Source: a virus
IMG/VR virus record: IMGVR_UViG_3300042390_000452
Location: 1-37,149 of that record
Length of the DNA stretch: 37,149 nucleotides
Strand: one strand, 5' to 3'
Shown here: positions 5,977 through 36,964 of the stretch, piece by piece
How the letters are laid out: every line of letters starts with the position of its first letter
How positions within the stretch are numbered: position 1 is the first letter of the stretch
Position numbers and translations under genes: made by a program
The notes under the pieces: generated by a model
Database searches by the model: none
Told to the model about the DNA's origin: nothing
The model's input: only the letters and a program-made list of their open reading frames with translations

Positions 5977-6347
5977 ACCCAGTTTGCATTCAAGACCTTA
6001 CAACGGCCAAAGTATTAGCCGCACCGACAAGTTGCCAAGCAACCGCTAACCTGAACATCGGAACATTAGCCCCTTCAACGGCTTATGATGTATTTATTAG
6101 TAATATCGGCAGTCAAACTACTATTAAATACGACATCGTTACCAACGGGGCGGGCCTTGCAACCATATCCTTGCAAACCAATGCACTGTTCTTTAACGGC
6201 AACAATTTGTATTCTTTGCACGTTGTGGCGAACAACGATGACATTGCCGACTACGTGCTGATTGACAACCTATACGTTGGCTTCGTGCTGTACTTTTGGC
6301 GAAGCAATACAACCGCCCCGACCACGCAAAACATTCAGGTAGTTTAA
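5973..6347 (+). CDS. Beta-rich hypothetical protein, possibly virion-associated
   Basis: This 124-residue protein is rich in Thr, Asn, Ala and short hydrophobic strands, consistent with an Ig-like or small jelly-roll fold. Phage decoration proteins often look like this, but no specific family is recognisable. It overlaps the previous gene by ATGA and is the last gene before a TACCTTTG promoter box, so it probably ends the 51-6347 transcript. No hairpin terminator follows. Confidence 0.6.
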   Translation: MNPVCIQDLTTAKVLAAPTSCQATANLNIGTLAPSTAYDVFISNIGSQTTIKYDIVTNGAGLATISLQTNALFFNGNNLYSLHVVANNDDIADYVLIDNLYVGFVLYFWRSNTTAPTTQNIQVV

Positions 6348-6348
6348 C

Positions 6349-6356
6349 TACCTTTG
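6349..6356 (+). promoter_or_regulatory. Bacteroidota-type -7 box TACCTTTG
   Basis: TACCTTTG fits the TAnnTTTG consensus and begins two bases after the preceding stop. The ATG at 6379 lies 22 bases downstream. No clear TTTG -33 partner is visible. Confidence 0.5.
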
Positions 6357-7730: not shown

Positions 7731-10323
7731 GCTCGGTAATGTTGAAACCAAGGCACAGCAAGGCGGCAAGAACATAACCAAGTCATTTGATAATGCCAAT
7801 ACAGGCGTTAACAAACTATCTGCCAACCTTAAAAACTTAGCGGGAACGCTTGGCCTTGCATTAGGGGCCCAAGAGGTCATTAGATTCACAAAGCAGACCA
7901 TTGATGCGGCATCCGACCTTAACGAAACCGTAAGTAAAAGCCAGCAGATATTCGGCACAGCAAGCAAATCTGTTGAACAGTTTGCAAGCAATTCGGCCAA
8001 GCAGTTTGGCATGAGCAAGAAAACGGCCATTGATGCTGCGGCTTCGTTTGGTACTTTCGGCAAAGCGGCTGGATTGACTGGGGAGGATTTGGGCACGTTT
8101 AGCACAGACCTTGTGGCTTTGTCTGCCGACCTTGCATCGTTTAGCAACACAACACCTGAAGAGGCAGCAATGGCATTGGGAGCAGCGTTAAGGGGTGAGG
8201 CTGAACCGATTCGCAAGTTTGGGGTACTTCTTGATGACGCATCTTTAAGACAAGAGGCTTTGGCAATGGGGTTGATTAAAACAACCAAAGAGGCATTAAC
8301 ACCGCAAAACAAGGTGTTGGCGGCAAATGCTTTAATCATGAAAAGCACAGTAGATGCCCAAGGTGATGTTGGCAGAACCGCAAGTAGTGCGGCCAACCAA
8401 CAACGCATTCTTTCAGCAACACTTGAAGATGTTCAGGCTAAACTTGGGGAGAAACTGCTGCCAGCATTTCAGCAAGGCATTCAAACCTTAAACGAATTCG
8501 TTGCAAATGCGGATTGGGATGCCATTTTTGGGGGGCTTGAAGAAGTTATTAACAATGTTAGTGAACCTTGGGGTGAGTTCTTTGACGCAATTGGCGATGT
8601 ATATCGGGCATTAACTGCTGGCCTAAGCACAGGCGAAAAGACCGCTGGTATTTTTGATGCAATTAAGGTTAGCGTAAATCTTGGGTTAATACCCATTAAG
8701 CTGCTTTCTAAATGGCTTAGATTAGTTGTTGACAATGGCATTATACCATTGATAAACGCTGGCAAAAATGTAATTGCTTGGTTCAATGAGGTTCGTGAAA
8801 GCGGCGGCTTTGTTGGTGCTATATTTAACGGCATCGCTTCTGCGGCTGGTGCTGTTGTAGATAAGTTGGTAGGGGTTGCTGAGTTTATTGGGTTGGTGGA
8901 TAGTGCAGAAGAAAAACAAAAAAAGAACAAAGAAAAGGCCGAAAAAGCAAAGCAGAAAGCCATAGAAGAAACGGCTAAATTTGAAGAGGCAAAGAACAAA
9001 GAAAAGGTCGCTGCTGACGCTGCCGCTGACGCCGCTGCTGAAGCTGCCGATGCTGCTGCCACCGCTGCCGCCAAAGAACGTGCAAAGAAATTAAAAGAAA
9101 TCAATGCCCAGTTTAACAAGGAAATGATGTCGCTGGCCGATGAACTTACCTTGATGATGATTGCCGATGAAGATGAACGGGGCCGCAAGCAACTTGAAAT
9201 TCAAAAGAAGAACGACCTTGCATCAATTGATGCCAGCGAATTCACCGCAGAACAAAAAGGAAAATTAAAGGCTCAGATTGACGCAAAATATGACCAGTTA
9301 GAAATAACAAGGCAGCAAGCCCAAAACGAAAAATTAAAGAAAGGCCAAGAAGATTATCAGCGTTTTCTTGAAGAACAAGGACTGAAATCCGAAGAGGGGG
9401 CAAAGGAGGCGGAAGACCGTAAGTATTCTGCTTATCTTGAATTGTGGAAACTTAAACAAGAGAACGAACTGCTTGGCATTGAAAATGAAGAGAAACGCAA
9501 GCTGAAAGAACTTGAAATGCACGAACAAAACGAGATTGCCAAGGTTGAGGCTTCGGAGTTTGCTGCTGAAATCATTGACGAAATTCAAAAAAAGTATGCG
9601 GCATTAAGGGTTAAAAACGAAATAGAAACGCAAAAGGCAACCAACATAGCTATGGCCGATGGTTTTTCTCAGCTTTCAAGTGGTTTCGGCCAAATGGTTA
9701 GTTCATTCGCACAAATAAGCGGAGAAGGTGCAGAATACACTAAGGCGTTGGCGGTTATTGGTGTTCAAATACAGCTTGCAACTGCCCTTGCCGCCGCTAT
9801 TGCTGGGGCTACTACTGCCGCTGCCGCAACAGGGCCCGGTGCCCCTTTTGCATTGGCTGGCTACATTGCCTCAATGGTTGGGGCTGTTGTTGCCGCATTC
9901 GCCCAAACAACCCAATTGCTAACTGCCGAAGTGCCAAAACCAGCGTTCTACGAAGGTACAGCATACCTTCAAAGGGGCGGCAACCCAAAAGGCAAGGACA
10001 CCATTCCCGTAATGGCACACGAAGGGGAAGCGATTATACCAACCGGGAAGAACTTGCAATACCCGGGCCTTGCGAAATCGTGGATTGATGGCAGCCTTGA
10101 CGGGTACATCAACAAAAACTTCGTGCGGCCCGCATTGATGGAACAACAGCGGCAAGCCGAGGAAGATTTTGCCGACCGCTTGGCGAATTCAATGGCCTTG
10201 CAAATGTCCAGCAACTTCGATGACTACCGCCTTTTTAGGGCAATCAAAGAACAAACGGCAGTCAACAGGACTGGCTTTGAAACCATGAAAATTAACCGCA
10301 AAAAAATAAGAGGTGGACGGTAA
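7651..10323 (+). CDS. Tape measure protein
   Basis: An 890-residue protein that sets tail length and is ejected with the DNA. The N-terminus (IIVEFQAETTKLKKELDDL) is a typical coiled-coil tape-measure start. Residues about 75-230 resemble TP901-type tape-measure cores (SKSVEQFASNSAKQFGMSKK, TPEEAAMALGAALRGE, KFGVLLDD). A Lys/Glu/Ala coiled coil covers about 415-490 and more coils run to 650. Ala/Gly-rich hydrophobic segments near 703-757 could insert into the membrane. At about 1.5 angstroms per residue the tail would be near 130 nm (inference). Confidence 0.93.
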   Translation: MAIDKIIVEFQAETTKLKKELDDLKGRLGNVETKAQQGGKNITKSFDNANTGVNKLSANLKNLAGTLGLALGAQEVIRFTKQTIDAASDLNETVSKSQQIFGTASKSVEQFASNSAKQFGMSKKTAIDAAASFGTFGKAAGLTGEDLGTFSTDLVALSADLASFSNTTPEEAAMALGAALRGEAEPIRKFGVLLDDASLRQEALAMGLIKTTKEALTPQNKVLAANALIMKSTVDAQGDVGRTASSAANQQRILSATLEDVQAKLGEKLLPAFQQGIQTLNEFVANADWDAIFGGLEEVINNVSEPWGEFFDAIGDVYRALTAGLSTGEKTAGIFDAIKVSVNLGLIPIKLLSKWLRLVVDNGIIPLINAGKNVIAWFNEVRESGGFVGAIFNGIASAAGAVVDKLVGVAEFIGLVDSAEEKQKKNKEKAEKAKQKAIEETAKFEEAKNKEKVAADAAADAAAEAADAAATAAAKERAKKLKEINAQFNKEMMSLADELTLMMIADEDERGRKQLEIQKKNDLASIDASEFTAEQKGKLKAQIDAKYDQLEITRQQAQNEKLKKGQEDYQRFLEEQGLKSEEGAKEAEDRKYSAYLELWKLKQENELLGIENEEKRKLKELEMHEQNEIAKVEASEFAAEIIDEIQKKYAALRVKNEIETQKATNIAMADGFSQLSSGFGQMVSSFAQISGEGAEYTKALAVIGVQIQLATALAAAIAGATTAAAATGPGAPFALAGYIASMVGAVVAAFAQTTQLLTAEVPKPAFYEGTAYLQRGGNPKGKDTIPVMAHEGEAIIPTGKNLQYPGLAKSWIDGSLDGYINKNFVRPALMEQQRQAEEDFADRLANSMALQMSSNFDDYRLFRAIKEQTAVNRTGFETMKINRKKIRGGR

Positions 10324-14346: not shown

Positions 14347-15227
14347 TGACCCGCAAGGAACGGCTTATAAAGAAAATCGCCCAGAGCATGGACGATGTGC
14401 CCGATGCGTTTTTCCAAGGCGTAAAGGCGGCACAGCGTGAGGCGTTTGCTTTAATGGTTTCGGAGTTAGCCGACCTTACCCTTGATGAAGCTGGCAACGT
14501 AATCATAAGCCAAGGCAACTTTGCAAAGGTGCAGACGCTTACTAACAAGATGAAGGCCGCATACAACAACCCTAAATACACCGAGGCGTTGAGGGGCTTT
14601 GTTGATAGCATGAGCGAGGGGGCAGAACTTTCGGCAAAGCTGATGGGCCTTATAACCGGGGAGGCATACACGCAAAGTGCCAAGGTTCAGGCCATATTGG
14701 GTAACGCTAAAAGCACAACCTTAGACCTACTATCTACCAACGCCCCAGCCGATGCCGCCGCCGCCTTTCGCAAGGTCATTGAAAACAGCGTGGCCACGGG
14801 CGAAAACTTTGGCCAAGTGCTGCGTAATGTGCGAAAGAACATTGAAGGTAGTGCGGACTTTCAGGGCCGTATGGAAAGGTACGCCAAGCAAAACGCCTAC
14901 GATTTCTATTCGATAAGCCAAGCCCAAGTCATCAACGAAATGACCGAAGAACTTGGCTTTGAGTTTTACGAATACATTGGTGTTGATGTGAAGGGTACGC
15001 GGAGTTTTTGCAGCCAGCGGAACAACCAAATATACCACAGCAAAGAGGTGGAGGCATGGGCTTCGCTGGATTGGGACGGCAAGAACAGGGCAACGAATTC
15101 AAGTACTATTTGGGCACTTCGTGGCGGTTACAATTGCGGGCACCAGTTAATTCCCGTGGCAACCGAAGATGTGCCGCAAAGTGTTAAAGACCGGGCCGAG
15201 GCTGCTGGGTTTTATACCCCTGAATAA
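14346..15227 (+). CDS. Mu F-like / SPP1 gp7-like head morphogenesis protein
   Basis: A 293-residue protein with a helical N-terminal ~190 residues. Its C-terminal domain shows the Mu F signature: TRSFCSQRNNQIYHSKEVEAW followed by WALRGGYNCGHQLIPV, with conserved cysteines, Trp and the GG.NC.H segment. Family members bind the portal or are packaged as minor head proteins. It is normally adjacent to the portal, but here the portal lies 5.5 kb downstream at 20784. Its 3' end overlaps the convergent 15212-16336 gene by 16 bases. Confidence 0.8.
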   Translation: MTRKERLIKKIAQSMDDVPDAFFQGVKAAQREAFALMVSELADLTLDEAGNVIISQGNFAKVQTLTNKMKAAYNNPKYTEALRGFVDSMSEGAELSAKLMGLITGEAYTQSAKVQAILGNAKSTTLDLLSTNAPADAAAAFRKVIENSVATGENFGQVLRNVRKNIEGSADFQGRMERYAKQNAYDFYSISQAQVINEMTEELGFEFYEYIGVDVKGTRSFCSQRNNQIYHSKEVEAWASLDWDGKNRATNSSTIWALRGGYNCGHQLIPVATEDVPQSVKDRAEAAGFYTPE

Positions 15228-16336
15228 AAGCAGCCTAATTGTCGGCCCTTACCATCGGTCGTAATTGTATGCCTTGGGTTACCAATTAAGCCAAGCAATT
15301 CGTTTACATCGAATGAATCCACATCGTGAACTATCAAAACACCATTTTCGGCTACCTTTTTTTGGTAGTATTGCACCAATTCTTGAATAACTGTCGGCCC
15401 GTGATAGCTGTCGTGAAAAACAACATCGTATTTTTCATCGTTTTGCAGTTCTTTTTCACCCGATGTTATTCGAAAATCAATTAAATATGGGCTACAAAAC
15501 GCAATGTTTGCCTTTAAATGTTCATCGCTGATGTCGATTGTCTTTACCGATAGGCCAGCCATTGCCATAGCCTTTGCCCCATGTGCCTTAAAAGTACCTA
15601 CTTCAAGGGCCTTGCCGCCTTTGTATTGCTTGGCCACGTTGTGAATTTCGGTTATGTGCATTTTATCCGTTATCCACGTATGAGCAAAGTCCCAGTTTTC
15701 AATTTGTGATTCGGGGTTCCCCCATTCAAAGTCATTTTTACCTTCGTAAATTGAGTAATTTGCTGATGAGTGAAAAGCCAACACTTCTTCATTGGGGATA
15801 TTTGTACCAATGTCCATCACGTTCAACCGCTTGTCGGCCAGCGTTACCAAGTTTTTGAAAACCTGATTTGAAACGCATTGGTCGCCCCATTTTTTTTCGT
15901 ACCTAAAATAATTTTTGTAGCAGAAATCAAATATCGGCTTGTGCTTGCGGTTGGCCACAAACCAACCAGCATTGAAATAGGTTGAGGGCTTTAGGCGGTA
16001 TTGCTGTTCAAGGCCACGGGTATGGTCATTGTCCCGGTCAAGGCAAAAGTAAACGTCTTTGAAATCGGGCAAATAATCTGCCAAATCGAAATCCCGAACG
16101 GGCCGCCAATCGCAGTCATGATACATTACCAAATCAAGGTCGGGCCAAATATCCCAAATCTTGTACTTCAATGTCCACACCATTTCTTTAAACTGATGCA
16201 AGTTTAATGCATGGTGCAAATGTTCATCAGTTATAATTCGGGTTTCAAGGCCCAAATGTTTACGGACAAGTTCTGCCGATTTTTCAGCGTGCTTCAGGTA
16301 ATCGCCAACACCTATTGTAATTGCGGTTGGTTTCAT
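15212..16336 (-). CDS. Glycosyltransferase-SAM methyltransferase fusion
   Basis: This 374-residue two-domain protein is on the minus strand. Residues ~1-190 resemble a GT-A glycosyltransferase: a DCD metal-binding DxD-type motif at 74-76 (MYHDCDWRP), then YFNAGWFVANR near 120-130, like the FN.G segment of GT8-type enzymes. Residues ~235-374 are a class I methyltransferase: motif I ALEVGTFKAHG near 243-253, an acidic TIDIS near 267-270, and VVFHDSYHG and VLIVHDVD strands. A sugar could be transferred and then methylated, or the two domains may act separately. Targets are unknown; virion or cell-surface glycan is plausible. It forms an operon with the HTH gene via ATGA. Confidence 0.75.
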   Translation of the reverse strand: MKPTAITIGVGDYLKHAEKSAELVRKHLGLETRIITDEHLHHALNLHQFKEMVWTLKYKIWDIWPDLDLVMYHDCDWRPVRDFDLADYLPDFKDVYFCLDRDNDHTRGLEQQYRLKPSTYFNAGWFVANRKHKPIFDFCYKNYFRYEKKWGDQCVSNQVFKNLVTLADKRLNVMDIGTNIPNEEVLAFHSSANYSIYEGKNDFEWGNPESQIENWDFAHTWITDKMHITEIHNVAKQYKGGKALEVGTFKAHGAKAMAMAGLSVKTIDISDEHLKANIAFCSPYLIDFRITSGEKELQNDEKYDVVFHDSYHGPTVIQELVQYYQKKVAENGVLIVHDVDSFDVNELLGLIGNPRHTITTDGKGRQLGCFYSGV

Positions 16337-16692
16337 TTTGTTGTGGATTGAATTATGTTGTAAATTTTAAACCATTTGCCGGGCACATTCTTTTTGAAAA
16401 ACAAAACCCGTTGAACGTGCTGGCCAACCGTTACCCGATTGATGCCGATAAGTTCTGCCGCTTCGCCGCTTGACAACCCTTTCATGGCCACGAAATAATA
16501 AGACGCAATTCGCTTAATGTCGGAATACTGCCGCCGTGTTGCGGTCCGAAATGCGGCGTAATCAACCCCGTAGTATGCACAAAGCGACCAAAGAAAGTCA
16601 TCGGCTGCCAGCGAAATGCGGCGATTCAGTTCGCTATTCACCGCAAATTTAAGGTCGAAAAGTTCGGCCAATGAAAGTTGTGCCACGTTCAT
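16333..16692 (-). CDS. DnaA domain IV-like helix-turn-helix protein (copy 1)
   Basis: This 119-residue minus-strand protein has a C-terminal two-thirds that reads like DnaA domain IV: AYYGVDYAAFRTATRRQ, then IKRIASYYFVAMKGLSSGEAAELIG, then the recognition-helix region INRVTVGQHVQRV. It lacks an ATPase domain. It is probably a DNA-binding regulator or origin-binding accessory protein, and it resembles the 29484 protein. It is the first gene of a two-gene minus operon, overlapping the glycosyltransferase-methyltransferase start by ATGA. Its promoter box is only five bases from the ATG. Confidence 0.65.
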   Translation of the reverse strand: MNVAQLSLAELFDLKFAVNSELNRRISLAADDFLWSLCAYYGVDYAAFRTATRRQYSDIKRIASYYFVAMKGLSSGEAAELIGINRVTVGQHVQRVLFFKKNVPGKWFKIYNIIQSTTK

Positions 16693-35057: not shown

Positions 35058-35417
35058 ATGGCGAACAATACGAACGCTAAAAAAAAGGCGATGCTTGAAG
35101 CCCTTGAAAAATCATTGGGCATCGTTACAACGGCATGTAAGGCGGTCGGGGTTGCAAGGGTAACGCATTACGAATGGGTAAAGCTGGATGAAGAATACAA
35201 GGCCAAGGTTGATGAAATCATGGAGGTGCAACTTGACTTTGTCGAAAACAAGCTAATTGACCGCATCAACAAGGGCGATACCGTTGCGATAATTTTCTAC
35301 CTGAACAGCAAAGGCAAGTCAAGGGGCTACAACAGGCCGCATGAAGAAAAGCGGGACAACGTGAAATGGCCGAGTAACTTTACTTTCAACATCGTGAAAA
35401 ACGATGAAGAAGTATAA
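35058..35417 (+). CDS. terS: Terminase small subunit
   Basis: A 119-residue basic protein with an N-terminal helix-turn-helix (MLEALEKSLGIVTTACKAVGVARVTHYEW near residues 12-40), as in terminase small subunits that recognise packaging sites. Its C-terminal part has NKGDTVAIIFYLNSKGKSRGYN, shared with such proteins. It overlaps the large subunit by 14 bases. Confidence 0.8.
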   Translation: MANNTNAKKKAMLEALEKSLGIVTTACKAVGVARVTHYEWVKLDEEYKAKVDEIMEVQLDFVENKLIDRINKGDTVAIIFYLNSKGKSRGYNRPHEEKRDNVKWPSNFTFNIVKNDEEV

Positions 35418-36723
35418 TCTTAACCCAAAGCAGCATCAAACATTAACCGCAAGCGAAACCGAACGGCTGTATGCTTATGTCGGTGGCATTCGTTCAGGCA
35501 AAACCATAACGGGGGCACATTGGGCACTACACAACATCATTCATCAGCCCGAGATAAAGGGCGGCATCTTCAGCAACACGGTAAGCCAGTTGAACACCGC
35601 CACGCTATCCGAATTCATTGGGGTGTTGGAGGCCTACGGGCTATTCAAGGGCGAACATTACGTGGCCAACAAAGACCCTGAAAGGTACTTCGGCTACAAG
35701 TCAAAGTTCGAAAAGCACAACGGCGTTTGGTCGTTTATGAACGGGGCACAGGTAATCACCTTCAGCATCGAAACAATGATAAGAGGTATTGAACTTGGTT
35801 GGTGCTGGGGCGATGAGGTGCAAGATGCGGCGATTGACAGCCTGAACATTGTCATGGGCCGTATGTCAGGGGCCAAGTTCCCCCGCACGCTGTGGACAAT
35901 GACACCGCCGATGGACAACCCTGACATTGATGAACTGATATGGGGCGAAAAGCAGATAGCCCATACCATCGGCACAACCTATGACAACAGTGCGAACCTA
36001 CCTGAAGGCTACATTGAGCAGCTTGAAAAGACCTACGATAGCCTGACCTTCAAACGGGAGGTGTTGGCCAACCGGGTAACCATGTCAGGGCTTAACTGGC
36101 TGTATTCATTCGACAGGCAAAAGCACGTGGGTAGCAAGGCGGCATACGATATTACCATGCCCGTGTACGTTTCGATTGACTTCAACAACAACCCGTTTAC
36201 GGCCACATTAGCACACAGGGGGCGGCATCAAGATGGCAACCAGTATATTCACTACTTTGATGAGATTGCGTTAACGGCAGATCACATACAGGGCCGCACG
36301 TTTATCGAGGCGATGGTTGAAGAAATCTTCAGGCGAACCCCAGCACAGGTGCAGAACCGATTGTACTTTGTAACGGGCGATGCTTCGGGCCGTGCCCAGT
36401 CGGTAATTGCCAAGGTCGGGCAAAACATGTGGAGTGAAATCGTTGACCGCATGAGGGTATCGCCAAACAATTTACTGGTTCCAAGGTCTAACCCGCCGCA
36501 TCAAGAATCAAGGCGGCTATGCAACAGTATCTTCAGCAACTACAATGAGGTGTTAATCAACCCGAAATGCAAGGTGCTTATACGGGATTGCGAGTTCGTG
36601 AAAGCCCTACCCGATGGCGGTGTTGACAAAGGCAGCCGAACCAAGGTTGATAAACGTGCAGATGCCTTGGACTGCTTGCGGTATGATTTGCACGCCAACA
36701 ATCGGCAGTTCATTTTCAGGTAA
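35404..36723 (+). CDS. terL: Terminase large subunit
   Basis: A 439-residue packaging motor. ATPase: Walker A GGIRSGKT at residues 27-34 and Walker B WCWGDE at 133-138. Nuclease: SIDFNNNPF with Asp at 259 and TGDASG near residues 324-329, and a downstream acidic KRADALDCLRYDL near 417-429. It cleaves concatemers and pumps DNA through the portal. It lies at the end of the early/packaging operon; a hairpin follows at 36733-36764. Confidence 0.92.
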   Translation: MKKYNLNPKQHQTLTASETERLYAYVGGIRSGKTITGAHWALHNIIHQPEIKGGIFSNTVSQLNTATLSEFIGVLEAYGLFKGEHYVANKDPERYFGYKSKFEKHNGVWSFMNGAQVITFSIETMIRGIELGWCWGDEVQDAAIDSLNIVMGRMSGAKFPRTLWTMTPPMDNPDIDELIWGEKQIAHTIGTTYDNSANLPEGYIEQLEKTYDSLTFKREVLANRVTMSGLNWLYSFDRQKHVGSKAAYDITMPVYVSIDFNNNPFTATLAHRGRHQDGNQYIHYFDEIALTADHIQGRTFIEAMVEEIFRRTPAQVQNRLYFVTGDASGRAQSVIAKVGQNMWSEIVDRMRVSPNNLLVPRSNPPHQESRRLCNSIFSNYNEVLINPKCKVLIRDCEFVKALPDGGVDKGSRTKVDKRADALDCLRYDLHANNRQFIFR

Positions 36724-36764: not shown

Positions 36765-36777
36765 AATGACAAGTTAG

Positions 36778-36930
36778 TAGTCAGGACAGGATTCGAACCT
36801 GTATGTAGAAACTATAATTACAGGCTGCACTACGTTTCTACTGAGCCATGCATGCGTCTACACTATTTAATTCTCCTTCCGTGAGAAACTTGAATTTGCC
36901 GTCCAAGCTAAAGCATTCCGCCACCTGACT
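36778..36930 (-). ncRNA. tRNA-like RNA with an oversized body (about 153 nt)
   Basis: The minus strand begins AGTCAGG TG GCGG and ends with a perfect T arm (ACAGG, loop TTCGAAT, CCTGT at 36786-36802) then CCTGACT, which pairs fully with AGTCAGG as a 7-bp acceptor stem, plus discriminator A. No CCA is encoded. A normal tRNA is under 95 nt, so about 60-70 extra bases lie inside. An 8-bp helix GTAGAAAC/GTTTCTAC (36834-36841 with 36805-36812) and a TTCTC/GAGAA hairpin (36871-36887) are visible. I could not place an anticodon arm. Intron-containing tRNA, decayed tRNA or a novel tRNA mimic are possible. Confidence 0.6.
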
Positions 36931-36934
36931 AAGA

Positions 36935-36964
36935 CAAAACTACAAAAAGGTTTAATACCGCAAA
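36935..36964 (-). promoter_or_regulatory. Promoter of the tRNA-like RNA: TTTG-N18-TAGTTTTG
   Basis: On the minus strand TTTG (36961-36964) is followed after 18 bases by TAGTTTTG (36935-36942), the best Bacteroidota-type promoter in the window. The tRNA-like acceptor stem begins four bases downstream, so transcription should start at or next to the RNA's 5' end. Confidence 0.7.

Follow-up and report, generated by a model that had tools for sequence, protein, structure and literature searches.

The window (the whole stretch of DNA analysed, a virus record of 37,149 bases) derives from a tailed phage that encodes a tape measure, a portal, an Erf-like annealing protein and a DnaC-like loader. Antisense to the gene for the large terminase subunit and just downstream of it, in a slot that most relatives leave empty, the minus strand from 36930 to 36778 carries a tRNA-Leu-like frame with an acceptor stem of 7 bp, a D stem and a T arm, followed by A73-C74. 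The anticodon arm is absent from this frame, and a different domain occupies its place. A discrete tRNA-like RNA had been proposed here in an initial annotation of the sequence, and the frame is confirmed both by the sequence and by covariation of the acceptor stem and of an interior helix termed S2. The locus comprises the following features.

35404..36723, plus strand: gene for the terminase large subunit (PHROG 2, E 1e-31)
36935..36964, minus strand: Bacteroidota-type promoter TTTG-N18-TAGTTTTG, its last G at -5 relative to the 5' base of the acceptor
36778..36930, minus strand: whole tRNA-like RNA, 152 nt plus discriminator A73, with C74 encoded at 36777
36924..36930, minus strand: 5' strand of the acceptor stem, AGTCAGG, pairing with 36785-36779
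36919..36921, minus strand: 5' strand of the D stem, GCG, in a tRNA-Leu-like TGGCGGAAT context; invariant in the window type
36864..36914, minus strand: 51-nt D-loop insertion, by alignment private to the window phage (the window and L048/L002)
36854..36856, minus strand: 3' strand of the D stem, CGC, the end of GTAGACGC, placed by alignment and covariation
36844..36847, minus strand: 5' strand of the putative pseudoknot helix S1, GGCT (GGCTC in relatives); invariant, placed by complementarity only
36834..36841, minus strand: 5' strand of helix S2, GTAGAAAC; three pairs with two-sided compensation
36823..36826, minus strand: 3' strand of the putative helix S1, AGCC (GAGCC in relatives), within the S2 loop
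36805..36812, minus strand: 3' strand of helix S2, GTTTCTAC, with exactly 2 nt between it and the T arm
36786..36802, minus strand: T arm, ACAGG TTCGAAT CCTGT, with a canonical T loop; identical in most of the 342 elements described below
36779..36785, minus strand: 3' strand of the acceptor stem, CCTGACT, perfectly paired with AGTCAGG

The first part of the element runs AGTCAGG-TGGCGGAAT-[51 nt]-..GTAGACGC-ATGCAT-GGCT-CA-GTAGAAAC-GTAGTGC-AGCC-, and after AGCC it continues as TGTAATTATA-GTTTCTAC-AT-ACAGGTTCGAATCCTGT-CCTGACT-A(C). The wide separation of the acceptor halves noted initially stands, with the distance corrected from about 110 to 138 nt, of which 51 nt are a copy-specific D-loop insertion. 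This insertion was matched by pattern scan in L048 only, no homologue of it was found outside the window phage, and it folded no better than mononucleotide shuffles (96/500); it may disturb the elbow in the window copy. It can be drawn as two hairpins, the first of which has a 7-nt loop, CGGCAAA, similar to a degenerate anticodon arm. Elsewhere in the window, two overlapping ORFs at 15212-16692 lie on the minus strand of a phage that is otherwise plus-strand, and the larger resembles the Pfam families Methyltransf_24 and Glyco_transf_8 weakly, with scores under the curated cut-offs. A weak snoZ256 match at 36609-36683, inside the terminase gene, was set aside as chance.

The element has the upper half of a tRNA, namely a 7-bp acceptor, a T arm with a TTCRANN loop and a D stem, and its likeness is to class II tRNA-Leu, with which it shares a TGGCGGAATTGGTAGACGC D arm with a 3-bp D stem, the T arm, A73 and the lack of an encoded CCA. 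Phages that carry the elements (L077, L096) also have genuine tRNA-Leu genes whose D arm is almost identical. The elements differ from these in having no anticodon arm, a putatively pseudoknotted interior, D-loop insertions and a near-constant AGTCAGG acceptor. ARAGORN identified no tRNA or tmRNA in the window, Rfam gave no match there at the gathering threshold, and a permissive Rfam search returned a tRNA match of only 14.3 bits against the RF00005 gathering threshold of 29. The tmRNAs resemble the elements in their tRNA-like ends, a pseudoknot and the absence of an anticodon, but the elements keep a D stem and leave no room for a tag reading frame and a long P2 helix. A tmRNA, considered unlikely from the outset, was rejected on the negative ARAGORN and Rfam results, the length of only 152 nt and the presence of the D stem. 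One element, in L060, has a real tmRNA gene in its vicinity.

The same interior type was recovered by an interior-pattern search in four independent lineages, which are the window, L175/L028 (a 39-kb contig), L176 (6.3 kb) and L283 and L284 (92 and 115 kb). Across these lineages helix S2 reads GTAGAAAC/GTTTCTAC, GCAGTAAC/GTTACTGC, GTAGCAAC/GTTGCTAC and GCAGTATC/GATACTGC, with two-sided compensatory change in three of its eight pairs, which bears out the internal helix first predicted in the window. The acceptor occurs in this type as AGTCAGG/CCTGACT, AGCCAGG/CCTGGCT and AGTTAGG/CCTAACA. Acceptor arms that failed to covary had been named as grounds against such an RNA; the arms do covary, with two-sided compensation in two of seven pairs (3-70 and 4-69, in L176 and L283). 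Paired cells amount to 97.3% in the window-type alignment, compared with 30-38% when the partners are slid, and the D stem GCG/CGC is changed to GCA/TGC, a compensated replacement, in L240. The direct covariation covers five pairs across four sequences plus three pairs across three, and control (a) of both covariation analyses keeps the relatedness among the sequences. Helix S1 (GGCTC/GAGCC; GGCT/AGCC in the window) sits across S2 and is invariant, with complementarity as its only support here, and the interior can be drawn as an H-type pseudoknot in which S1 crosses S2. The loop TGTAATTA is unchanged in all four lineages. Compared with dinucleotide shuffles, the complete element has a more stable fold (z -2.1, 4/200). 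The nested free minimum-energy fold, which pairs GTTTCTAC with a D-arm strand and mispairs the interior helix, is contradicted by the covariation.

The promoter pattern TTTG-N18-TAGTTTTG stops 4 nt short of the acceptor and by itself is not beyond chance in the window (three matches, 1.6 expected). Among the terminase relatives listed, however, TTTG-N18/19-TAGTTTTG stands 4-6 nt upstream of the first element in 13 of the 13 records with an antisense element (one of which, L002, is the window phage itself) and occurs in 0 of the 28 records without one, a co-occurrence that upholds the promoter first proposed. Because the flavobacterial sigma-A box spans -12 to -5 (PMC9723704), +1 in the window would be the first acceptor base; by the same spacing, +1 is predicted to precede the acceptor by about 2 nt in some relatives. 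As the promoter is tied to the element in these relatives, the slot is best described as a small RNA transcription unit that is present in some close relatives. A second tRNA-like gene of 69-70 nt, AGCCCGGTAGTGTAACTGG...TGGGCT, lies antisense directly past the terminase stop (for example at 5320-5391 in L015) and is present in L015, L017, L019, L021-L025, L028, L013, L020 and L046. Its all-T anticodon loop (TTTTTC or TTTTTTC) measures 6 or 7 nt, a length that varies between relatives, and ARAGORN calls the gene either tRNA-Lys or one with no anticodon.

The window element belongs to what is apparently a large, undescribed family of RNAs in uncultured viruses, often with many members per genome. 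Searching IMG/VR with the exact 23-nt 3' end returned at least 120 stretches, in which as many as seven copies lay within 5 kb, and a second IMG/VR search anchored on the 26-nt 5' end alone gave at least 120 matches. Among the IMG/VR loci listed there are at least 342 distinct elements with nearly the same ends, which include at least about 235 non-redundant, unrelated interiors. The family is defined by an AGTCAGG/CCTGACT-like acceptor, a TGGCGRAAT D arm, a CAGGTTCGANTCCTG T arm and A73-C74, all of which the window element has; A73 is found in 305 of the 342 elements and C74 nearly always, and total length ranges from 53 to 181 nt in the first, 3'-end-anchored set. AGTCAGG stands at the 5' end of 202 of the 215 elements found by their 3' end, and 98 of the 111 sites anchored on the 5' end lead to a T arm and then to a pairing acceptor strand (52 with an identical T arm). 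The ends of the family therefore predict each other, and their constancy is not merely a product of the searches. The near-invariance of AGTCAGG comes in part from the anchors, as two of the four lineages in the interior-anchored search differ by one compensated pair.

These elements are spread over unrelated phages among the listed loci, often sit among true tRNA genes and, among the records listed, number up to 13 per whole record, mostly on the same strand. Many different interior types are present per contig, and several types recur across contigs with conserved loops and compensating stems. The first 5 kb or so of L058 (1-4957) has few plausible protein genes and contains true tRNAs and at least seven anticodon-less elements on one strand, with 11 elements in the whole contig. 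D-loop insertions are also found in L071, L097, L112, L145, L162 and L173. No protein family was present as a potential partner in more than 21 of the 205 loci. A promoter conserved at each copy was not found across the family, so processing is likely in arrays; the suggestion that transcription starting at the acceptor might make RNase P unnecessary is not borne out on this account.

Several other tRNA-like genes were encountered in these contigs. A 155-175-nt type (L060, minus strand, 7996-8151 in reversed-locus coordinates; L084; L095; L131, plus strand, 835-991) has the acceptor TGTCAGG/CCTGACA and variants. Its long variable-arm domain is conserved and contains ATGGGTTGACCACAAAGCCGGCTATTTTGT, its stems change in a compensating way (from GCTG/CAGC to GCAG/CTGC) and its D loop has hairpins; this type looks like another undescribed structured RNA. 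Two 76-nt tRNA-like genes without a normal D arm (L100, minus strand, 6276-6352; L144, minus strand, 484-560; both in reversed-locus coordinates) have different acceptors and interiors that are much alike, including a 4-bp stem and the loop CTTATAC. In L058, L086 and L166, elements of the form AGTCAGGAG(C/A)CCATTGGTTGG..., with the T8-G9 linker and Leu-type D arm replaced, have conserved interiors common to the three contigs.

A search of about 85,000 genomes of bacteria and archaea gave only six matches to the exact 3' end, each in a MAG contig, and a host origin of the ends was rejected on this basis. Four of the six are assigned to Bacteroidota (Sediminibacterium, Flavobacterium, Saprospiraceae and Chitinophagaceae); the other two come from MAGs of other phyla. 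Among 50,697 phage records we found nothing beyond partial matches of 28-33 nt, mostly to ordinary tRNAs, with cultured phages unmatched, and all relatives of the window element are metagenomic contigs. The hosts are probably Bacteroidota, judging from the MAG bins and the promoter type. No report of such RNAs was found in the open-access papers searched, and there is no Rfam family for them.

Across the family, an anticodon stem with a 7-nt loop occurs no more often than in shuffled sequence. Of 336 elements, ARAGORN accepts 63, with anticodons that are scattered and in some cases of two or four letters. Some copies have 6-, 8- or 9-nt loops at the position of the anticodon arm, as might be expected of functional but odd tRNAs that decode by unusual loops; as the elements have no common anticodon and the ARAGORN calls are scattered, we consider this very unlikely. 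A tRNA from which an intron or insertion is removed to give a normal tRNA, as the initial annotation had suggested, would account for the long interior between tRNA ends and for a minority of copies that resemble a tRNA with a 9-nt anticodon loop. However, removal of one contiguous stretch leaves no anticodon arm with a 5-bp stem and 7-nt loop, the interiors are too short and varied for group I introns and match no known intron class in Rfam, and the T-arm-proximal helix would cross the arm adjoining the D stem. Conserved ends, compensatory change and an architecture common to the family argue against it as well, and we regard an intron as very unlikely. The minority in question (L142, L185, L271) shows that the family is not uniform; in these copies an anticodon-like stem of 5 bp closes the 9-nt loop (G/A)AAGTACAA and the variable arm forms a hairpin with compensating changes, so that they look like a tRNA-Leu-like RNA with an enlarged anticodon loop.

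The common architecture emerged from a helix-anchor test in which 128 unrelated interiors with a recognisable D stem were compared with dinucleotide shuffles. Strong enrichment was seen for a helix with its 3' strand placed exactly 2 nt short of the T arm (z -1.07 +- 0.13, n=128; 35% of the 128 elements were in their best 5%), and no enrichment was seen at offsets of 0, 1 or at least 7 from the T arm. In the 55 elements with a clear helix at this offset, a crossing helix was enriched (z -0.60 +- 0.15) and hairpins inside the flanking segments were not (z -0.18, -0.01). Position-restricted pseudoknots reached p <= 0.05 in 24% of elements; the unrestricted pseudoknot score gave a weak signal (z -0.34, versus -0.04 in controls), whereas T-arm anchoring gave a clear one. 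S2 of the window conforms to the 2-nt rule and covaries. In a second subfamily (L058/L214/L240) compensation was found in the crossing helix and the D stem, and in a third (L055/L103/L213/L222/L267) AGGTTA/TAACCT is crossed with GATAAC/GTTATC, a pairing based on complementarity with little variation. The nested structure of the interiors was no greater than in the flanks, and a k-mer search for sequence shared between them gave only displaced D-stem strands, TAGACGC, from D-loop insertions.

Two further explanations can be weighed against this architecture. The first, also raised initially, is that these are decaying or disabled tRNA genes with no present function, as the D arm and class of tRNA-Leu and the great variability of the interiors in sequence and length (53-181 nt) might suggest. 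Decay would be expected to erode the ends too, and it is contradicted by the conserved ends, by compensation in the acceptor, D stem and S2, by a position-specific helix with its crossing partner and by a promoter retained together with the element, so that we hold it to be very unlikely. The second is an element that acts as DNA and not as RNA, for example a site of recombination or integration, or a small mobile element bounded by AGTCAGG/CCTGACT. The acceptor strands are inverted repeats, the slot beside the terminase is filled or empty among close relatives, and the elements are dispersed over unrelated phages; yet conservation tracks tRNA features (the T loop, the D-loop GG and A73/C74), the promoter is linked to the element, compensation in the interior is strand-internal, and no integrase was recognised among the window proteins searched, which were part of the ORFs. 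A DNA-level role is very doubtful as a result, and a packaging or replication element, another of the initial options, found no support. The elements are not tRNAs, tmRNAs, introns or decaying tRNAs.

From the frame, the missing canonical anticodon arm, the covariation of acceptor and S2, the constant-ended phage family and the promoter, each established by sequence comparison, we arrive at a tentative reading to which we give a probability of roughly 0.4. The element may be a non-decoding tRNA mimic, derived from tRNA-Leu and with a pseudoknotted interior, that occupies host factors binding the acceptor and elbow; a decoy for tRNA-binding enzymes, which had been listed initially, is our leading guess. 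Such a phage non-coding RNA would have descended from a tRNA-Leu gene, keeping the upper half of the tRNA (acceptor stem, D stem and T arm) and losing the anticodon arm, with a pseudoknotted domain in its stead. The elbow is probably kept in the family through the conserved D-loop GG and the T loop. The ends would mature in a tRNA-like manner, by RNase P or direct initiation at the 5' end and by RNase Z and CCA addition at the 3' end, and the mature RNA could then tie up LeuRS, EF-Tu, a tRNA-targeting defence enzyme or another factor that holds tRNA by its acceptor and elbow. Dosage would come from the many copies, and dissimilar interiors would prevent repeated copies from being recombined away. 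Bacterial LeuRS does not need the anticodon. RNase P, RNase Z, CCA enzymes and LeuRS take hold of tRNA at the elbow (PMC4810234). That decoding has been discarded while the acceptor, T arm, D stem and putative pseudoknot appear to be kept by selection fits a non-decoding mimic. Against a decoy that uses the upper half only, the loop TGTAATTA is fixed in four lineages and the acceptor changes by compensation within the type; fixed interior loops and within-type acceptor compensation therefore favour a function in the interior.

Nearly as likely as the mimic, and better at explaining the fixed interior loops, is a polymorphic RNA. Here the tRNA frame would be a chassis that secures stability, processing and defined ends, and each interior pseudoknot would be the payload of its type, which might for instance inhibit one defence protein; phages would carry sets of different payloads. 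At least about 235 dissimilar interiors occur in one frame, several interior types are met again in other contigs with their loops conserved and their stems compensated, one interior type is common to contigs of 39, 92 and 115 kb and to the 37-kb window phage, and many different types are found per contig. Most interiors have been seen once, however, and the near-constant sequence of the T arm and acceptor, as opposed to their fold alone, is left unexplained, since anchoring accounts for part of it and not for most. A more speculative extension, which we consider less likely than not, is that phages, apparently for the most part of Bacteroidota, carry arsenals in which a constant tRNA chassis is combined with exchangeable pseudoknotted payloads, each directed against a different host factor.

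The elements have partial parallels among known systems, which include GOLLD, an RNA often found near phage tRNAs. Plant-virus tRNA-like structures are the 3' ends of RNA genomes and have their pseudoknot in the acceptor. As viral tRNA mimics that keep the elbow and use pseudoknots elsewhere (TYMV, for example; PMC4810234) they resemble the elements, which differ as separate genes of DNA phages with a true acceptor stem and the putative pseudoknot at the position of the anticodon arm; the window element, a DNA phage gene with an ordinary acceptor stem, was not assigned to this class. Some phage tRNAs evade anticodon nucleases through changes in the anticodon loop, a proposed counter-defence (PMC10264068). 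They too are phage tRNA genes changed in the anticodon region, but they still decode and have few loop mutations, whereas in the elements decoding is wholly lost. GOLLD and ROOL are large structured RNAs in phages, GOLLD having come from lake metagenomes (PMC12286853); they are hundreds of nucleotides long and have no tRNA frame, and the window has no Rfam match.

The hundreds of phage genes gathered here are missed or mislabelled by tRNA finders, keep the tRNA handle (acceptor and elbow) and cannot decode. Why phages carry tRNA genes has long been debated, usually from genes that tRNA finders recognise. Since the non-decoding elements keep this handle, part of the phage 'tRNA' load would serve a role other than translation, and the near-constant ends make the family easy to find. 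If the arsenal proposal is true, these RNAs would be a counterpart of polymorphic toxins or anti-defence islands.
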